IMG/VR virus record: IMGVR_UViG_3300036900_000315
Span: 1-64,000 of that record
Strand: one strand, 5' to 3'
Source of the DNA: a virus
Length of the DNA: 64,000 nucleotides
Of this stretch, positions 1 through 63,095 are shown in pieces. The translations under genes and the position numbers were made by a program. How positions within the stretch are numbered: position 1 is the first letter of the stretch; every line of letters begins with the position of its first letter. A model generated the notes under the pieces. It was not told the origin of the DNA and ran no database searches. It was given only the letters and a program-made list of their open reading frames with translations.

Positions 1-127
1 TTCCCTTTTGAGGGGGAGCCGCGGCCGCGGGCGGATGGACAAGCGGGGAGTTTGCGAATTGCTTCACGACTACATAGTCGGGAGTTCGCGGGAAAAGGTG
101 CCAAAACTGTTTTAATGCACCTGCCGT
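1..127. repeat. Direct repeat copy 1 (127 bp or more, truncated by the window edge)
   Basis: Bases 1-127 are identical to 529-655. The offset of 528 bp equals 176 codons, so both copies are read in the same minus-strand frame. Identity stops sharply at 127/128 versus 655/656. The left limit is unknown because the window starts here. Confidence 0.95.
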
Positions 128-502
128 CGTGCACACGATCCTGCGTCCGCCGGTGCGAGCTTCGGTCACAAACTGCCCGCGATCCGCCTCAGTCACCGCC
201 GCTTCGAACGCCTCAATCGTCAGGGAGCAGAGGCTGAAAAACACCGTGGGCGTGATGAACTTGCAGAGCTTCATTAACCCCGTTACCTTGCGCTCGTTTC
301 CCTTCGCCCCGATATCGAGGTCGTAGAGGTCGCCGCGGGCTACATCGGTTTCAGCCGGCAGCAGGTGCGCGAATTCGGCCATCACTCGCAGCCGGAGGAC
401 TTCCTTGCGGGCGTTGGGTGCTTTGGTGCTCTCGACCAGCAGGGCATATTCGTCGTAATCGGCGCGCTGTTCGGGCGTCGCTGGAGCCTTCGCAACTGGC
501 AT
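1..502 (-). CDS. Unknown protein, 3' end off the window, contains half of a duplicated segment
   Basis: This minus-strand frame is open from ATG 502 to the window edge, so the C terminus is missing. The protein begins MPVAKAPATPEQRADYDEY, continues as a charged alpha-helical stretch, and ends with a segment carrying WHLFPRTPDYVV followed by an Ala/Pro-rich linker. The frame is also open upstream of 502, through the second copy of the 127-bp repeat and back to a stop near 781. That extension has no convincing start and would be antisense to the small gene at 695-841. The same WHLFP-PDYVV motif recurs in the short ORF next to the integrase. I do not recognise the family. Codon usage matches its neighbours, so I believe the frame but not the exact start. 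Confidence 0.5.
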   Translation of the reverse strand, partial: MPVAKAPATPEQRADYDEYALLVESTKAPNARKEVLRLRVMAEFAHLLPAETDVARGDLYDLDIGAKGNERKVTGLMKLCKFITPTVFFSLCSLTIEAFEAAVTEADRGQFVTEARTGGRRIVCTTAGALKQFWHLFPRTPDYVVVKQFANSPLVHPPAAAAPPQKG

Positions 503-14576: not shown

Positions 14577-15148
14577 CTCTTAAAATCTCCTCTCGTGTTC
14601 TTGCCTGCTGTAACGAGTCCGTCTTCCTCGCCTTCAGGTTCATCGCCCGGCTCTCGCTCGGGGTCCTGCTCCGTCTTGTTCGGCGCCATCGGTATCACGT
14701 TGCCGATTGTTGCCGTGGCGCGCCTGAATCCGCCTTTGACTGCCTGATGGCGTTTCGCCTGCGCTTCGAAGTCTGCAAGTTTGCCTGCCCACCACTCATC
14801 GTGCCGGCGGCGTTCCTCGGGCGACCACGAGCGCTCGTCCTTCATTGACCGGTCGGGCTTCCAGGGGATCGCCGCGCGCGCCTCGGCCCGTCTTAATTCA
14901 GCCATTGCCGCAAAATCGGCAGCCGATGGGCAAACGCTGCCCCTGATTTCCCCTCGCGGAGTGATGGACGTATCGCGCAAACGCTGAAAGACCATCTCGG
15001 CGGCACCTTCCTGTGAATCGTTCGAGTCACACAGTGAGGTGGCGAGGTCAGCGAGACATAGTGAGCTTAGGCCCGCATAGTACGCCGTGTTTTCAAACCG
15101 CCTTATCTGCGCTCGACAGAAACGCATATTTTCGTCATTCCGGTCCAT
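14573..15148 (-). CDS. Protein of unknown function in the replication cluster
   Basis: 191 aa. MDRNDENMRFCRAQIRRFEN start. The middle is helical with a WSPEERRRHDEWW motif. The C terminus is acidic and Pro/Glu-rich (TEQDPEREPGDEPEGEEDG). It overlaps the initiator gene by 14 bp and the wHTH gene by ATGA, so it belongs to the same operon. Possible replication accessory protein by position only. Confidence 0.55.
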   Translation of the reverse strand: MDRNDENMRFCRAQIRRFENTAYYAGLSSLCLADLATSLCDSNDSQEGAAEMVFQRLRDTSITPRGEIRGSVCPSAADFAAMAELRRAEARAAIPWKPDRSMKDERSWSPEERRRHDEWWAGKLADFEAQAKRHQAVKGGFRRATATIGNVIPMAPNKTEQDPEREPGDEPEGEEDGLVTAGKNTRGDFKR

Positions 15149-16331
15149 GAGAAGTCATTCCTTTCCGATGGATTTTTTCGACTTCAGCCCACTTGCGCTC
15201 CTCTCTTAAATCAGCCGCGGTCTTGTGAACTGCTGCCGGTGAGGGGGTGTTACCTGCGCGTTCGTCCGCCAGTTCTTCGAGATAGGCTTCGCTCGCTTTT
15301 TTGGCCAGCAGTACGAGGAACGGCCACTTCCTTACACGGTGCGCATTCTCCGTCAACTGCGGCTCGAAGAACTCCCGCCACGCGCGCCCGGTCGGGATCA
15401 GGTTGTGAATCTGGGCGCCGAATTCCTTGGGTAGGACCTCCCCGATCTTCTTCCGGAATAACCGGTTCAGTCGCTCCTTCAGTTGCTCGTAGCTTAGTGC
15501 GTCTTCATTCTGGGATGGGGCCTTCGGGGGGGCCGCGGCGGCCGGCGCCGGGGTGGGGGTGACGTCCAGGATTCGACCGGTTATACTGAGTGTCGTTACC
15601 AGATCGAAGCTGTTGGGATTGCGTAGGCGAATTGTGTCGATTGCAGCCCAGAGGGGCAGGGGAGGGGATTGCTCCCCTGGTTTAACGACGATGGTTTGAG
15701 GTGAAAACGTGCGCTCTGGCTGATCAGCTAAAGATTGCGTAAAACTGCCGAGTTCGGCAGTCTGTGATAATTCGCACTGCGGTAAATTGTTGATTTCGCT
15801 AGGTAATTCAATTTCTGACGTTGACGGCGCGTCCGTCGGAATATTGGTTTCCTCAGCCTTCGGTGAGACTCTCCGCACCGTCGCCCGCGCGGCCGCCCGA
15901 AGCTTTTCGGGTGCCAGGCGATACCATGTCTGGCCATCCATTCGCTGCGTCTCCAGTCCAATCTCGCGCAACTCCGCGACTGCCTTGTTCACGCCCGATT
16001 CGGTGGCGATCCCGATCCGCATCAAGTCGGCCATCGAGAACGGCACCCATCCCGGGTGTGGATACGCACTCTTTTCCGCCAGGTAGGCCGCGGCTTCCGC
16101 TCCATAAACTCTCGGATCGACCCGGCCGCCATAGGTCCCCCGAACGACCGCGTACACGAGACGGAAGCCGATGGCTGATGTGACCGCGGCGTCGAGCTTC
16201 TCCCAATCATCGTTCGAGAACAGCGTGCCGTTCTTTTTGACTTCGGGTGCCAGTTGGAAACGGAGGTCGAGAGTTTGCTGCCGACCGTCTGCCGGCTTCT
16301 TTTTCGCTCGGGCTGCTGAACCAGTACTCAT
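15135..16331 (-). CDS. Probable replication initiator with winged-helix domain
   Basis: 398 aa from ATG 16331 (MSTGSAARAKKK), coupled to the upstream stop. Residues about 20-165 include FSMADLMRIGIATESGVNKA and VAELREIGL, a winged-helix domain of the type found in phage and plasmid replication initiators. A low-complexity Pro/Ala linker lies near residue 275. A C-terminal helical domain follows (EQLKERLNRLFRKKIGEVL). The N-terminal domain is duplicated as the next gene upstream. A perfect 18-bp palindrome inside this gene (15744-15761) shares its first 11 bases with the iterons at 18.2 kb. Initiator is my best call; a transcription regulator cannot be excluded. Confidence 0.6.
   Translation of the reverse strand: MSTGSAARAKKKPADGRQQTLDLRFQLAPEVKKNGTLFSNDDWEKLDAAVTSAIGFRLVYAVVRGTYGGRVDPRVYGAEAAAYLAEKSAYPHPGWVPFSMADLMRIGIATESGVNKAVAELREIGLETQRMDGQTWYRLAPEKLRAAARATVRRVSPKAEETNIPTDAPSTSEIELPSEINNLPQCELSQTAELGSFTQSLADQPERTFSPQTIVVKPGEQSPPLPLWAAIDTIRLRNPNSFDLVTTLSITGRILDVTPTPAPAAAAPPKAPSQNEDALSYEQLKERLNRLFRKKIGEVLPKEFGAQIHNLIPTGRAWREFFEPQLTENAHRVRKWPFLVLLAKKASEAYLEELADERAGNTPSPAAVHKTAADLREERKWAEVEKIHRKGMTSHGPE
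15744..15761. promoter_or_regulatory. Iteron-like perfect palindrome inside the initiator gene
   Basis: ACTGCCGAGTTCGGCAGT is an exact 18-bp palindrome around a central GT. Its first 11 bases equal those of the first iteron (ACTGCCGAGTA) at 18.2 kb apart from the eleventh base context. It may be an autoregulatory or origin binding site. Confidence 0.45.
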
Positions 16332-16762
16332 ACGGCACCTGCGTTCTGTGCCTTCTCGGCCGCTGCCAAAACCTTTTCCGGGACAATGCGGTACCAGAGC
16401 TGACCATTCAGGCGCTCCGTCTCCACTACTCCTATTTCCCGTAGTTTTGCGATTGCCTTCTTTACTCCGGATTCCGTGGCGATCCCGATCCGCGTCATGT
16501 CGGCCATCGAGAACGGAGTCCATTCCGGGTGCGGATATCCGCCCTTTGCCGCCACGAATTCCGCGGCATCGTTGCCGTAGATCTTCGGATCGATCCTCCC
16601 GTCATAGGTGCGCAGGACAATCTCGTCGGCCAGACGTAAACCAGTCAGCGATGTGCACACGGCATTCAGCCCGCGTTTGAGATCCGTTGAAAAGAGAACG
16701 CCGTGGTTCTTGACTTCCGGAGCGAGCCTAAAGCGGAGATCGGGTTTTTCGGGGGTGGGCAT
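16328..16762 (-). CDS. Single-domain paralogue of the initiator N terminus
   Basis: 144 aa, aligning along its whole length with residues about 25-175 of the downstream 398-aa protein. Shared stretches include FRLAPEVK, YPHPEWTPFSMADMTRIGIA and ATESGVKKAI. It lacks the linker and C-terminal domain. The two are adjacent and ATGA-coupled, so this is a tandem duplication. It could compete for, or pair at, the same DNA sites. Confidence 0.6.
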   Translation of the reverse strand: MPTPEKPDLRFRLAPEVKNHGVLFSTDLKRGLNAVCTSLTGLRLADEIVLRTYDGRIDPKIYGNDAAEFVAAKGGYPHPEWTPFSMADMTRIGIATESGVKKAIAKLREIGVVETERLNGQLWYRIVPEKVLAAAEKAQNAGAV

Positions 16763-17419
16763 TTACTCGACCCCCTTTCCGGTCTCGAGTAATTCTGCTT
16801 GGCATTTACTCTCCCAGTCCTTGCGGGCCTGGCGCAACTCTTCTTTGATTCGGATGCGCCTGACTTGCAGGGTGGCCAACTCCGCCGCTTTCTCGGGAGC
16901 GAGGTTCCTGATCTGTTCTTTGATCTCCAATTTCAACTTGATCAGGTAGAGACCTGCCTGCGTCGGCTCGCCGTTCCAATCCCTTAACAGCGGGAAAGGC
17001 GAGCGCTCGCCGGATTCAACCGAATTCTTCAATTGCTCCTGTTGCGCTTTACTGAAGCGAAACGGCTCCTGTTTCACTTCCCATTTCTTGAGCGCTCGCT
17101 GTCCCGATGGCGTCAGAGTGCCGTCGTCACGAACGAAACAGCGGGCGAATTGATCCGCTCGTTTCCCGCCTGTCATGTAAGATCCATCGCTAGTCAGGCG
17201 GCCATTGCGGATCAGTGCGGATTTCTGAGAGCCGGAAGACCTCAACTGTTGGGCTACTGCCTTCGCCTCTAAGATATTTCGCATCTCGGCGTCCAGGGCG
17301 CGAGCCACTTCCAGGTCAAGAAAAGTTTCAGTGGGGGATTGTGACGTGTCTGTTTCAGGCACCACGACAGTCTTATCAGTCACGATGGCTGTCGTTTTTA
17401 CTGTGATGGAGGACGACAT
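16763..17419 (-). CDS. Protein of unknown function, first gene of the replication operon
   Basis: 218 aa. Thr/Val-rich N terminus, then helical segments with KKWEVKQEPFRFSKAQQEQL, and a coiled-coil-like C terminus (KLKLEIKEQIRNLAPEKAAE). A GAGAAGGA SD lies upstream. It heads the 17.4-13.2 kb operon and directly abuts the small initiator paralogue. Function not recognised. Confidence 0.6.
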   Translation of the reverse strand: MSSSITVKTTAIVTDKTVVVPETDTSQSPTETFLDLEVARALDAEMRNILEAKAVAQQLRSSGSQKSALIRNGRLTSDGSYMTGGKRADQFARCFVRDDGTLTPSGQRALKKWEVKQEPFRFSKAQQEQLKNSVESGERSPFPLLRDWNGEPTQAGLYLIKLKLEIKEQIRNLAPEKAAELATLQVRRIRIKEELRQARKDWESKCQAELLETGKGVE

Positions 17420-17575: not shown

Positions 17576-17896
17576 TCACTTACTACTTCCACCTCCTAAG
17601 ATGATTGGTAGTAGTGTGGGATTTTTCGACGCGAGCGTCGGAGGCGGACGTATGACAATTTTAGCCTGCAACAAAACACCAAAGGGCGCGGTGGTTATGG
17701 AGCGATTGCGGCTAGACGTGGAATCGAATTCCCGTAATGGAGTGCTTTCGAATGCCAAGTAATAACTTAGCTTCCGATAACATACATTATTGTCAAACGT
17801 CCCGAATTGAAGGCGATACGCGCCCTTATCCAGCAAGTCGCCAGTTAGTACTAGCAGTACCAGCCAACTTACATCTATAGACAAGGCGTGAATCAT
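17576..17896 (-). CDS. Possible small protein with hydrophobic N terminus
   Basis: 106 aa from ATG 17896, which overlaps the stop of the 18111 gene (ATGA). Residues 1-22 are hydrophobic (MIHALSIDVSWLVLLVLTGD). The rest is Ser/Thr/Pro-rich and less gene-like, and a plus-strand frame also exists here. The coupling is the only strong argument. Confidence 0.35.
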   Translation of the reverse strand: MIHALSIDVSWLVLLVLTGDLLDKGAYRLQFGTFDNNVCYRKLSYYLAFESTPLREFDSTSSRNRSITTAPFGVLLQAKIVIRPPPTLASKNPTLLPIILGGGSSK

Positions 17897-18111
17897 GCCG
17901 ATGCCTCTTGGCTCTTCGCCAGCGCACGATTTCGCAGACTGTTTTGACGGCATGCCTCGCGACACGACGCACAACGGCATCCGTAGTTGTTGTACTCGCC
18001 CCACGTGCCGTGCTTCGCTTTGCGCGGTTCGGTCCAGCGTGCACGCGCGGCGCGACGCATTCTCTCTTTGAGTTGCGCAGCGGTCTCAGCGGGAAAAACA
18101 CCTTGGGGCAT
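17893..18111 (-). CDS. Small phage protein with CRCASC motif
   Basis: 72 aa. HGTWGEYNNYGCRCASCREA (residues about 34-53) matches the recurrent phage signature HGT..Y..GCRC..C, known mostly from actinophage and prophage proteins of unknown function; the cysteines probably bind zinc. Basic N-terminal helix (RMRRAARARWTEPRKAK). It is transcribed away from the iteron region. Confidence 0.65.
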   Translation of the reverse strand: MPQGVFPAETAAQLKERMRRAARARWTEPRKAKHGTWGEYNNYGCRCASCREACRQNSLRNRALAKSQEASA

Positions 18112-18199: not shown

Positions 18200-18290
18200 C
18201 TGCCGAGTAGGGCAGAATTGATGCCAACCTCTGCCGAGCAGGGCAGAAAAACCTGCCGAACAGGGCAGAGATTTATGCCGAGTAGGGCAG
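18200..18290. repeat. Four iterons, probable replication origin or repressor array
   Basis: Four 16-bp units with at most one or two changes each: CTGCCGAGTAGGGCAG at 18200-18215, CTGCCGAGCAGGGCAG at 18231-18246, CTGCCGAACAGGGCAG at 18253-18268 and ATGCCGAGTAGGGCAG at 18275-18290. Each is itself a dyad (CTGCC/GGCAG). Start spacings are 31, 22 and 22 bp, the latter two helical turns. AT-rich tandem repeats follow at 18308. Confidence 0.8.
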
Positions 18291-18307
18291 ATTTTCGCGG
18301 GCCATTA

Positions 18308-18347
18308 TATTCTTTAAAGAGGTAAGGTATTCTTTAAAGAGGTAAGG
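18308..18347. repeat. Two exact 20-bp tandem repeats, AT-rich, beside the iterons
   Basis: TATTCTTTAAAGAGGTAAGG occurs at 18308-18327 and again at 18328-18347. Each contains the palindrome CTTTAAAG. Position next to the iterons and low GC fit a DNA-unwinding element, or alternatively a pair of promoter/operator sites. The remaining sequence to 18464 holds an imperfect inverted repeat (TAGGTAGGTTC and GACCTGCCTAC) and no gene. Confidence 0.75.
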
Positions 18348-18464
18348 GCGCGCAGAAAGAATTTATGCAGATCGTGGGGGTAGCTAGGTAGGTTCTTTCT
18401 TCGACAGCGGCGACCTGCCTACTTACCTAACTCGGCCCGCAACACAACAAACAACGAAGGCAAA

Positions 18465-19163
18465 TCAAAACACCCGCGGCGAAGGTCCGAAACCCGCGCG
18501 CTCGAATTCCGAACCGCTCCATTCCGCGATCCGGCCGGCGAGCTCGTCATGCACCAGCGTGAGCAACCGCGCACGGTCCCCATTTCCCACCATGTCGAGC
18601 TCCGCTGCAATTACCCGCGTAATGCGCGAACGGATCAGATCAAAATCGAGTGCCACAAATCCCGCCTCGCGCGCCATGGCATCGCGCACCAAAGGCTCCA
18701 GCAGCATACGCCACATCCCCGCTGGCGCGACGACGCGACCCACCTCGACGAACTTCCCGTCCTTCCCCTCCGAACGTTCGTAGCGCCACAGGATCACGGT
18801 ATTGTCCGACAGGTGACGGGCGTGTCCGCGTGCTGGAGTTTCGGCACCGGCGAATTCAACAATAAGTGGAGTCCGGGGGAAAGTTCCGTTCGGCCACAAG
18901 TTCGCTTCGGGGATCGTGGTGCCCGGCGAAAGGAAGTTTCCCTTCCACTCGAAAGCCGTGCGCGATCGCGGGTCGACGAGCTTCAGGAGTTTCGCGTAGG
19001 TTGCCTGGCTACGCTTGGTTCGCGAGAGCGGAAGACGTACGTGGCGAGCGGGTTCCAACGCCCCAAGTATGGCGTGTCGAGATGCGTTTTCGCCTTTATA
19101 CAAACGGCTTAAAGCAAATGCATTATGGAAAACTGCCAGTACTCCAAGAGGTTCAGAATACAA
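18465..19163 (-). CDS. Protein of unknown function beside the putative origin
   Basis: Up to 232 aa. The frame opens with TTG 19163 and has no ATG near its 5' end. A TTG about 70 codons or fewer in (LEPARHVRLPLSR) follows a TATAAA box and may be the real start. The body is well-formed alpha/beta (LIVEFAGAETPARGHARHLS, NTVILWRYERSEGKDGKFVE), with Arg-rich helices in the C-terminal half. No family recognised. It is a lone gene reading toward the iterons and may belong to plasmid-like maintenance or to the lysogen. Confidence 0.55.
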   Translation of the reverse strand: MYSEPLGVLAVFHNAFALSRLYKGENASRHAILGALEPARHVRLPLSRTKRSQATYAKLLKLVDPRSRTAFEWKGNFLSPGTTIPEANLWPNGTFPRTPLIVEFAGAETPARGHARHLSDNTVILWRYERSEGKDGKFVEVGRVVAPAGMWRMLLEPLVRDAMAREAGFVALDFDLIRSRITRVIAAELDMVGNGDRARLLTLVHDELAGRIAEWSGSEFERAGFGPSPRVF

Positions 19164-21264: not shown

Positions 21265-21954
21265 CTACTTCATCCTCACCAGCCGGAAGCCGTCAGAGTC
21301 GGCTTCGAGGTGCCAGCCTGGACCAATCTTCTGCTTTGGCAGCGACTGGGCTGCCGAGGCGTTGTTGTCGGCGCTGTCGGGGATGTAGCCGTTATCGGGG
21401 CTGTAGCCGTCCTTAAAGTACGGACCGGGTGCGCTGTGGATAACAGAGGGGGCCGGTGGCGCCCATTTGATACCGGAGACCTTGGGCATTGCCGGGTACA
21501 TGCCGTGGGCCTCGCAATCGGCCTTGCTGAGGTTGTCGCGGGTGAACGCAGCGGAGAAACTCTTCGCATCCATTGCCTGAACGTGGATATTGACGGACGC
21601 GCCGGCGTATTTCGCGACGATTGCCCGTGCTTCGTTGAGTTCCACGCGCAGTCCTTCCTCACTCTTGGCGCGTATGTGGCACTCGTCATTGGCTTGTCCG
21701 AGGCGTTTCTCGAGATAGTCCCGTTGCTCAATCACAGCCTTGAGCTGGGTTCTGAAGTTGCCGGCATCGAGCAGGGAGGCCCGCAGCTCTGCGTCGAGCT
21801 TATTGCGTTCCGGTACAACCCGGGCTACAATCTCACGGTTTGCCTCGAGGCATGCAGAAAGCTCGATCGCTCGGTCTTTGTAGACTTTGCTTTGTTGTTC
21901 GGCGTTCTGCCACAGCTCGTAGTAGATTCCGTTAAGTTCCATTTCGTTTACCAT
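21265..21954 (-). CDS. Coiled-coil protein next to the integrase
   Basis: 229 aa from ATG 21954, or 225 aa from ATG 21942 (MELNGIYYEL). Residues about 10-115 are a charged coiled coil (RNKLDAELRASLLDAGNFRT). Residues 140-229 are disordered Pro/Ser/Gly-rich sequence ending WHLEADSDGFRLVRMK. The start overlaps the integrase stop, so both are one transcript. Not a recognisable excisionase. Confidence 0.6.
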   Translation of the reverse strand: MVNEMELNGIYYELWQNAEQQSKVYKDRAIELSACLEANREIVARVVPERNKLDAELRASLLDAGNFRTQLKAVIEQRDYLEKRLGQANDECHIRAKSEEGLRVELNEARAIVAKYAGASVNIHVQAMDAKSFSAAFTRDNLSKADCEAHGMYPAMPKVSGIKWAPPAPSVIHSAPGPYFKDGYSPDNGYIPDSADNNASAAQSLPKQKIGPGWHLEADSDGFRLVRMK

Positions 21955-22643
21955 TCCCCTTTTAGCTTTTCGTCTTTCCGTCTGCGCTTGCTGTTTGTGA
22001 CCTTGGCGTAGATGGATGTACTTCTGATGTCCTGGTGGCCCACGTGGTCCTGGATCTCTTCAATGGGCACGTCGCGCTCCATCAGCGAGGTTGCGCACGA
22101 ATGCCGCAGACAGTGGAAGTGCTGTTTCTCAACCGGCAGATCAGCCTTGCGCCCGTACTTCTTCATCAATTTGTCCAGCATGAAGCGGCCGATTCCCGCC
22201 GTCCCTTGCCGGGAGATAAATAGTGGACCTGGCCGGGCCACCCGTTTGCGAAGGTAGGCCCGCAGTGCCTTTGCCTCGCGATCGGTGACCAGGTATTCGC
22301 CGCTGATGCCGTTCTTCAACCGGGTGACGTAGAGCCGCTGCTGGTTCGCGCGCCAGTGTCCGAATTGGACCAGCGCAACTTCAGAGGCACGGAGACCACG
22401 GTGATAGGAGACCTCGAAGATTGCAATATCGCGCACGCTGCCGGCGCCGCGCACGGCTGCGAATAGCCGGGTGAGCTCTTCCTCGGTCAGATACTTGATC
22501 GATTGATTTTTTTTTCGCGGCCGCCGAGATGTTGGAGGGGGGGTGGCGCCGCCCGGGTCCGGCCAGCCGTCGCGGGCGTTGCGTCTGGCAATCAACTGCT
22601 CGAAGAGGGCCTTATCGGCCTCGTCGAGGGTCTCATAACTCAT
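21948..22643 (-). CDS. int: Tyrosine recombinase (phage integrase)
   Basis: 231 aa. All catalytic residues are visible: R85 in HRGLRASE, K110 in RLKNG, H177-x-x-R180 in HCLRHS, H203 in GHQD and nucleophile Y212 in STSIYAKV. The catalytic domain starts near residue 50. The preceding 50 residues are too short for a normal SAM-like core-binding domain, so the protein is shorter than typical integrases (300-400 aa). It should catalyse integration and excision between attP and attB. A 36-bp sequence also present at the left end of the window lies 135 bp upstream and is a candidate attachment site. Confidence 0.9.
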   Translation of the reverse strand: MSYETLDEADKALFEQLIARRNARDGWPDPGGATPPPTSRRPRKKNQSIKYLTEEELTRLFAAVRGAGSVRDIAIFEVSYHRGLRASEVALVQFGHWRANQQRLYVTRLKNGISGEYLVTDREAKALRAYLRKRVARPGPLFISRQGTAGIGRFMLDKLMKKYGRKADLPVEKQHFHCLRHSCATSLMERDVPIEEIQDHVGHQDIRSTSIYAKVTNSKRRRKDEKLKGEW

Positions 22644-61694: not shown

Positions 61695-63095
61695 TTAGGA
61701 GGCCACTCTTCGGGCGTCCGCTACTTGCTGAAACGTCCGTCCGTCGCCTTCAAGGGTAGCTTCCTGGTTGGTGAACGTCTGCCAGCGCTTCACTATGACG
61801 TCGCAATAGTCGGGGCTGAGTTCCATTCCAAAGCAGAAACGGTTTGTTTTCTCGCAGGCGATCAGCGTTGTTCCGGAGCCGAGGAAGCCGTCGAAGCAGG
61901 AGTTGAACTCGAAGTCCGCGAATATCTTAACGAATAAACCTACGGGTTTCTGTGTGGGATGCACGCGTGTCTTCAGTTCGGTTTTACGGTCGCCTGCTCT
62001 GCAAAGACCGTTCCACATGAACTGATAGAGCTTGGCACCACGATCAAATGAGGTCCATGCCATTTCCACATCGGCAAAGTTGCCACTGTTTTGCTTGTCC
62101 CAGATCACCCAGCAAGGCGACGGGGCAAGAAAGTGGGTAAAGTAATTGCCGCCGAAGATAATGAAGTTCTGGATGCCGGATTCCAGCGCGTTGCGAAAAA
62201 ACGCCTCTGCCGCGTCCGGGTTATCGTCGTTCGCAATGGGCGCGTACAGCTTTGGTTTGACGATGTTTTTTCCGCCGCCGACGCCTTTTTTTGCACCGCC
62301 ATACGGATACATATGGCCCGCTGATCCGCCGCCGCCGACGACGCCTTCAGCGCCTTCGGCGCTTTGTAAACCAAATGGTTTTGGGCCGCCGCCGCCGCCT
62401 TTTTTGGATTCGCCTTTGACCTTCACGATGGCGATTCCGTAAGGCGGATCGGTGATCACGATATCCACTTTCGCACCGCCGGTAAGCCGTGCCAACTCTT
62501 CCGGCAGCGTGCTGTCACCGCAGAGCAAGCGATGCTTACCGAGAATCCAGAGGTCCCCTTTTACAGTGGCGACAGTTTCCTCAATATCAGGGCATTCGTT
62601 CTCGCCTTCCGTCTCTTCAACCGGAGCGCCGCCCGAAGCTTCGAGCACTGCATCACCAGCCGCTGCCACAACTGCGTCGAAGGCTTCCTGGGAGTAGCCG
62701 GTGCCCTCAAGCGATCCGTTGGACTCCGCCGCGATTTGCGTGAGCAGTTCCGCTAGCGCGGTGGGATCGTCTATTCCGAGGGACGCTGTGCGATTGTCGG
62801 CGGAAAGAATTCTGCGGGCCTGGACGTCAGAGCATTCCAGCCAGAAACAGGGAATCTGAGCTCCGCCGTCGCGTTTGACGGCAGCCAGGCGGTGGTTCCC
62901 CGCCAGGACGTATCCGGTAGAACGTTGCGCCACGACGGCGCCGTAGAAGCCGTTTGCCGTGATGCTGGCGCTGATAGCGTCTAAATCACCGCGCCGCGGG
63001 TTGTCCGGGTGCGGAATAAGCTTGTCGACGTCGACGAGTTCGAGCGTTTGTTCGTTAATTTGCACTTGTGGTGGAGCGGAGATCCTTCGTCCCAC
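61695..63095 (-). CDS. ParB-domain DNA methyltransferase fusion
   Basis: 466 aa from GTG 63095. Residues about 20-100 are a ParB/Srx-like nuclease-type domain (VDVDKLIPHPDNPRRGD, GYVLAGNHRLAAVKR). Residues about 185-450 are a DNA methyltransferase with DPPYG (216-220), HPTQKP (379-384) and FLGSGTT (404-410), the beta-class motif order. Residues 227-275 are an unusual Gly-rich insert (KKGGGGGPKPFGLQ, GGAKKGVGGGKN). It probably modifies phage DNA before packaging. Target base and site are unknown. Confidence 0.85.
   Translation of the reverse strand: MGRRISAPPQVQINEQTLELVDVDKLIPHPDNPRRGDLDAISASITANGFYGAVVAQRSTGYVLAGNHRLAAVKRDGGAQIPCFWLECSDVQARRILSADNRTASLGIDDPTALAELLTQIAAESNGSLEGTGYSQEAFDAVVAAAGDAVLEASGGAPVEETEGENECPDIEETVATVKGDLWILGKHRLLCGDSTLPEELARLTGGAKVDIVITDPPYGIAIVKVKGESKKGGGGGPKPFGLQSAEGAEGVVGGGGSAGHMYPYGGAKKGVGGGKNIVKPKLYAPIANDDNPDAAEAFFRNALESGIQNFIIFGGNYFTHFLAPSPCWVIWDKQNSGNFADVEMAWTSFDRGAKLYQFMWNGLCRAGDRKTELKTRVHPTQKPVGLFVKIFADFEFNSCFDGFLGSGTTLIACEKTNRFCFGMELSPDYCDVIVKRWQTFTNQEATLEGDGRTFQQVADARRVAS

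Follow-up and report, generated by a model that had tools for sequence, protein, structure and literature searches.

Iteron plasmid origins (Rep_3, RepA_N) combine repeats placed about two helical turns apart with an AT-rich stretch and a winged-helix initiator. In SPP1, gp38 binds both oriL, which is located in gene 38, and the non-coding oriR, and AT-rich elements are present at both sites (PMC6316719, PMC3485210). In lambda, dyad iterons and an AT tract are located in gene O, the iterons being imperfect dyads of 19 bp (PMC7466680). Integration at dif has been described for IMEX such as CTX-phi (PMC5357621), and domain I of DnaA takes part in DnaB recruitment in E. coli (PMC5448010). No replication origin of an Acidobacteria phage was found in the open-access literature searched.

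The window analysed here is the 64,000-nucleotide stretch at positions 1 to 64,000 of IMG/VR record IMGVR_UViG_3300036900_000315, a 66.6-kb siphophage contig (66,594 bases). A terminase, portal, major head protein, tape measure, and one tail protein were recognisable on the minus strand between 45 and 61 kb, and a ParB-like domain fused to a DNA methyltransferase (window 61695-63095) adjoins the terminase. The last bases of the record (66501-66594) are an exact 94-base copy of window positions 127-220, and the first 126 bases of the record differ; this terminal repeat fits a circular map and suggests one with a variable or misassembled end. The kin of this phage are phages and prophages of Bryobacterales (Acidobacteriota). 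The features considered are listed below by position.

15135..16331, minus strand: predicted replication initiator of 398 aa, with a winged-helix N-terminal half, a disordered linker, and a helical C-terminal part
15745..15760, plus strand: perfect palindrome CTGCCGAGTTCGGCAG in the initiator gene (codons 191-196, within the linker predicted to be disordered)
16328..16762, minus strand: 144-aa winged-helix-only paralogue of the initiator, 59% identical, with a 4-bp overlap with the initiator ORF
16763..17419, minus strand: 218-aa ORF heading the same gene run as the initiator
17774..17796, minus strand: dif-type attachment site, TTGACAATAATGTATGTTATCGG, between the array and the initiator genes
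17893..18111, minus strand: 72-aa ORF adjoining the array, with weak HNH/HTH-like matches
18200..18215, plus strand: dyad iteron 4, farthest from the AT stretch, CTGCCGAGTAGGGCAG
18231..18246, plus strand: dyad iteron 3, CTGCCGAGCAGGGCAG
18253..18268, plus strand: dyad iteron 2, CTGCCGAACAGGGCAG
18275..18290, plus strand: dyad iteron 1, next to the AT stretch, ATGCCGAGTAGGGCAG
18291..18375, no strand: candidate unwinding element, a low-stability AT-rich stretch that includes both 20-bp tandem repeats
18380..18432, no strand: degenerate inverted repeat, weak here (z +1.1), in the position that a GC-rich hairpin occupies in relatives
18465..19163, minus strand: ORF with an uncertain start codon, of which two relatives keep a counterpart between the integrase and the origin module (L209:5776-6327, L214:7263-7889)
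21948..22643, minus strand: tyrosine recombinase of 231 aa

The sequence-only reading had placed here four dyad iterons with 31/22/22-bp spacing, two exact AT-rich 20-bp tandem repeats beside them, and a related perfect palindrome inside the initiator gene; all are present, at 18200-18290, 18308-18347, and 15745-15760 (18 bp when extended, 15744-15761), respectively. The four 16-bp dyads are intergenic and similar rather than identical, with 1-3 differing positions (A is the first base of copy four), and they are imperfect, their arms pairing at 5 of 7 positions. Nine matches to the dyad with up to 2 mismatches were counted in the window against 0.8 expected (0 of 100 shuffles), and when up to 1 mismatch was allowed the whole 66.6-kb record held only the four array copies. 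None of 399 GC-matched random palindromes gave four such sites within 100 bp; listed by genome, the dyad clusters were equalled by 0/399 random palindromes for G000, 0/399 for G005, and 0/400 for G040. The G004 array was weak. The tandem repeat TATTCTTTAAAGAGGTAAGG occupies 18308-18327 and 18328-18347, and the least stable 50 bp of the AT stretch start at 18291, a level that only 0.4% of the window's stretches of equal width reach. No DnaA box was found near the array. As a collection-wide search pattern a single dyad was uninformative (at least 120 matching stretches), and two adjacent dyads gave no match.

Initiator sequence alone yielded no close relatives among viral contigs, genome contigs, and phage records, and relatives were reached instead via terminase and integrase searches. 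The same winged-helix domain was present in G001, G003, and G005 when the records of terminase relatives were searched; G040 and G041 were added by the integrase search, and G004 also carries an initiator version. Further versions were found by an order-wide search in the Bryobacterales genomes G171, G169, and G280, and the G003 phage is itself located within a Bryobacterales MAG. Eight arrays were compared, a small set consisting mostly of metagenome contigs, in which the dyads of the relatives were located by script and the module boundaries were then read by eye, not blind.

The predicted structure of the window initiator consists of a winged helix at residues ~40-150, a disordered linker at 153-276, and a helical end, with low overall confidence (pLDDT 55). 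PHROG matches of the initiators were weak and mostly to replication initiators (O-like) or DnaD-like loaders; the O-like family phrog_391 matched the G005 member at 2e-5 and the window initiator at E=0.018, which is not significant, and the latter had no significant family match of its own. No plasmid Rep family sought in Pfam and NCBIfam matched the initiator, and a search of 50,697 phage records for gp38 homology gave no match at E<=1, nor was there a matching profile. A fold search with the window initiator returned generic winged-helix regulators only, none at E<=0.001, and searches with each initiator half gave no significant relative; lambda P appeared at E=4.6 and was not counted as evidence. 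Downstream ORFs tested in the window and in G001 gave no loader match. The G040 initiator has DnaA domain I as its C-terminus: the Pfam match (DnaA_N, E=1.1e-8) passes that database's cut-off, and NCBIfam DnaA positions 1-74 match as well. The 144-aa paralogue was not seen in the relatives examined; it could act as a competitor or regulator.

The C-terminal domain of the G001/G003-type initiators (the C-terminal part of L227:7861-9249) resembles an unnamed protein of ~235 aa (L279:1351-2061, L281:1306-2010, L299:1339-2088), the gene of which is flanked by coaX-like and rlmD-like genes in two of the genomes viewed. This protein was present in 101 of 101 sampled genomes of one Acidobacteriota class, and had no Pfam or NCBIfam name and no PDB fold match.

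Starting at the hairpin, the inverted repeat is followed by the AT/pyrimidine-rich stretch and then by the dyads in the window, G001, G005, G040, G041, and G280, and weakly in G004; the block of G169 has the reverse orientation with respect to the initiator gene, with its internal order kept. Two dyads could be placed in seven phages (window, G001, G005, G040, G041, G169, G280), and the first spacing is 22 or 23 bp in each of them; the second varies from 22 to 35 bp. The AT stretch falls within the least stable 0.4-4% of comparable stretches in 6 of 8 cases (window 0.4%) and is unexceptional in G005 (15%) and G004 (11%), with the caveat that a higher AT content is a general property of intergenic DNA. 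G041 and G005 have a strong hairpin (z -5.7 at L222, -3.0 at L211), but that of the window is not significant. The intragenic sites lie mostly in DNA of ordinary stability (window 4%, G001 25%, G280 42%); since they are less clearly in unstable DNA, the intergenic array is favoured as the opening site.

The linker coding region of the initiator genes holds 1-5 dyad copies in the window, G001, G003, G004, G005, G040, G169, and G280: two of CCACACTKGAGTGTGG in G003, two of CGGGTCTGCAGACCCG in G005, two in G001, one each in G040, G004, and G169, and five in G280, and the G171 gene has a one-mismatch copy. In G280 there are five near-identical 33-bp repeats (L268:10146-10293) that encode an 11-residue repeat, so that coding sequence serves also as an iteron array. 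The phage-specific dyad recurs as an intergenic array, for example in G005 (13516, 13539, 13573), G040 (L220:8707, 8729, 8754), and G280 (L268:9140, 9163, 9198). When the intragenic dyad of each of seven phages with differing dyads was paired with its own array, the mismatch sum was 24 against a permutation mean of 67, and the identity pairing was the sole permutation out of 5,040 to score that well (1/5,040); there was one near-tie, the G001 intragenic dyad fitting the G004 array as well as the G001 array. Because the phages share ancestry, this test shows within-genome coupling of the two sites, not initiator binding as such. Since the initiator gene is the constant partner, its product would be the obvious ligand of the dyads.

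This arrangement resembles that of SPP1 in that repeats internal to the initiator gene are accompanied, here and in relatives, by a second, non-coding cluster with the same motif, and in that the repeats adjoin an AT-rich unwinding element. It differs in that such an element is present at both SPP1 sites, whereas here it is clear only beside the intergenic array, in that dyads take the place of the SPP1 boxes, and in that no gp39/gp40-type loader or helicase was identified. The likeness to lambda comprises the imperfect dyad iterons, the AT-rich tract alongside, a dyad inside the initiator gene (15745-15760 and in relatives), and the weak O-like PHROG matches; unlike lambda, the main array and AT tract here lie outside the initiator gene, which has one intragenic copy, and no P-type loader was found. 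Repeat spacing, AT-rich stretch, and winged-helix initiator are shared with iteron plasmids, but there is no Rep family match, the dyads are not simple direct iterons, and the module is phage-borne. By analogy, SPP1 oriL/oriR and the lambda ori appear closest in mechanism, except that here the unwinding element lies beside intergenic, not intragenic, sites. Membership in the SPP1 or lambda type is not claimed, given the lack of gp38 homology, the weakness of the O-like matches, the absence of a recognised loader gene, and the location of the unwinding element with the intergenic sites. As with IMEX and CTX-phi, the attachment site resembles the host dif, but the present element is a tailed phage that encodes a tyrosine recombinase of its own, and this likeness concerns integration, not the array.

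The sequence TTGACATAATATNNGTTATCGG occurs in one copy each in 32 of 61 Bryobacterales genomes and is absent from a reversed control, as dif would show. Two further genomes, L272 and L273, have it adjoining the same HAD-family gene, and in L227 and L266 it lies at the junction between host and initiator (L227:7768, L266:9049). These locations suggest that the phages probably integrate at dif. Tailed prophages of Bryobacterales appear to integrate at the host dif beside the HAD-family gene, though relatives carry their own tyrosine recombinase. None of the lysogens showed the second end of the prophage. Since the dif-type site lies between the array and the initiator gene, integration would separate the two. 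IMGVR_UViG_3300036900_000315 is a temperate siphophage, not a plasmid: it carries an integrase gene and a dif-type attachment site. The plasmid-like replication suggested in the sequence-only reading is thus not supported, and theta-type phage replication after infection or excision is the simpler reading.

On the sequence evidence, the module at 18200-18432 is probably an intergenic replication origin of a temperate siphophage of soil Acidobacteria, bound by its own initiator. The origin assignment and its link to the initiator gene, as first proposed, are supported by the cognate pairing in seven phages and the conserved module order. The winged-helix initiator (15135-16331) would bind the four 16-bp dyads, this binding would open the neighbouring AT-rich stretch at 18291-18375, and the C-terminal part of the initiator would then bring in the host helicase. 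The initiator may also bind the palindrome at 15745 in its own gene, which could serve in regulation of expression or copy number, as a second start, or as a fork-stalling point. We infer initiator binding, strand opening, helicase recruitment, and the choice of starting site. A GC-skew change had been expected at 18.2 kb, and in the window the cumulative minimum is located at 18,789, with the strongest change at the 5-, 8-, and 10-kb scales at 18.8 kb, even though the flanking genes are mostly on the minus strand on both sides. The minimum in G040 is 2.6 kb off the array, and G004 and G005 show an uninformative, one-directional skew; as it fails in these two relatives, GC skew was taken as mild support only.

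The array might instead be an operator cluster through which the winged-helix protein or its paralogue regulates the promoters of int and early genes, with replication starting elsewhere, for example at the intragenic dyad as in lambda. Dyads of 16 bp at 22-bp steps do look like repressor operators, the best winged-helix fold matches are transcription regulators, and both lambda and SPP1 keep an origin at intragenic sites (PMC7466680, PMC6316719). We nevertheless consider this unlikely, as the array has no sigma-70 promoter consensus (the host's own consensus may differ), the AT stretch and first spacing are conserved in a module that can have either orientation with respect to the initiator gene (inverted in L267), the intragenic sites of most relatives lie outside unstable DNA, and the G040 initiator carries a DnaA_N fusion.

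That the dyads are accessory recombination sites around the dif-type site, bound by a recombinase or directionality factor in the manner of the lambda attP arm sites, would agree with the position of that site at 17774 between the array and initiator gene, and with the location of the relatives' array directly downstream of int. The distances from array or intragenic dyad to the site vary widely, however, from about 0.4 to 2 kb where the site is recognisable, and every phage has its dyad linked to the initiator gene; moreover, G169, which adjoins a tRNA-Ser gene and has no recombinase homologue in the 20 kb searched, keeps both module and intragenic dyad, so this role is judged very improbable. 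The runs of T that follow two of the four copies on the minus strand were called terminator-like, but with stems of just 5-6 bp, and with no T runs at the other copies or at the perfect dyads of relatives, an identity of the dyads as tandem weak transcription terminators of that strand has a negligible chance of being correct and was rejected. An initiator-bound origin remains the preferred reading of the module.

Tentatively, and with a less than even prospect of proving right, lysogeny might split this replicon: integration at dif would put the array and initiator gene at opposite ends of the prophage, and excision would rejoin them. Under the same proposal the initiators would carry exchangeable helicase-recruiting C-terminal domains. 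One phage would have DnaA domain I in this role, and others the domain in common with the ~235 aa Acidobacteriota protein; that protein would in this case be the helicase-loading factor of the host itself. The C-terminal domains indicate a candidate host factor for helicase recruitment. The cognate pairing would provide an easily testable code of initiator-origin specificity in at least seven phages. It would also offer a natural test case for the evolution of initiator specificity where the initiator gene itself contains the binding site. The module may also offer a compact candidate origin for replicating vectors in Acidobacteriota, a phylum with few genetic tools.
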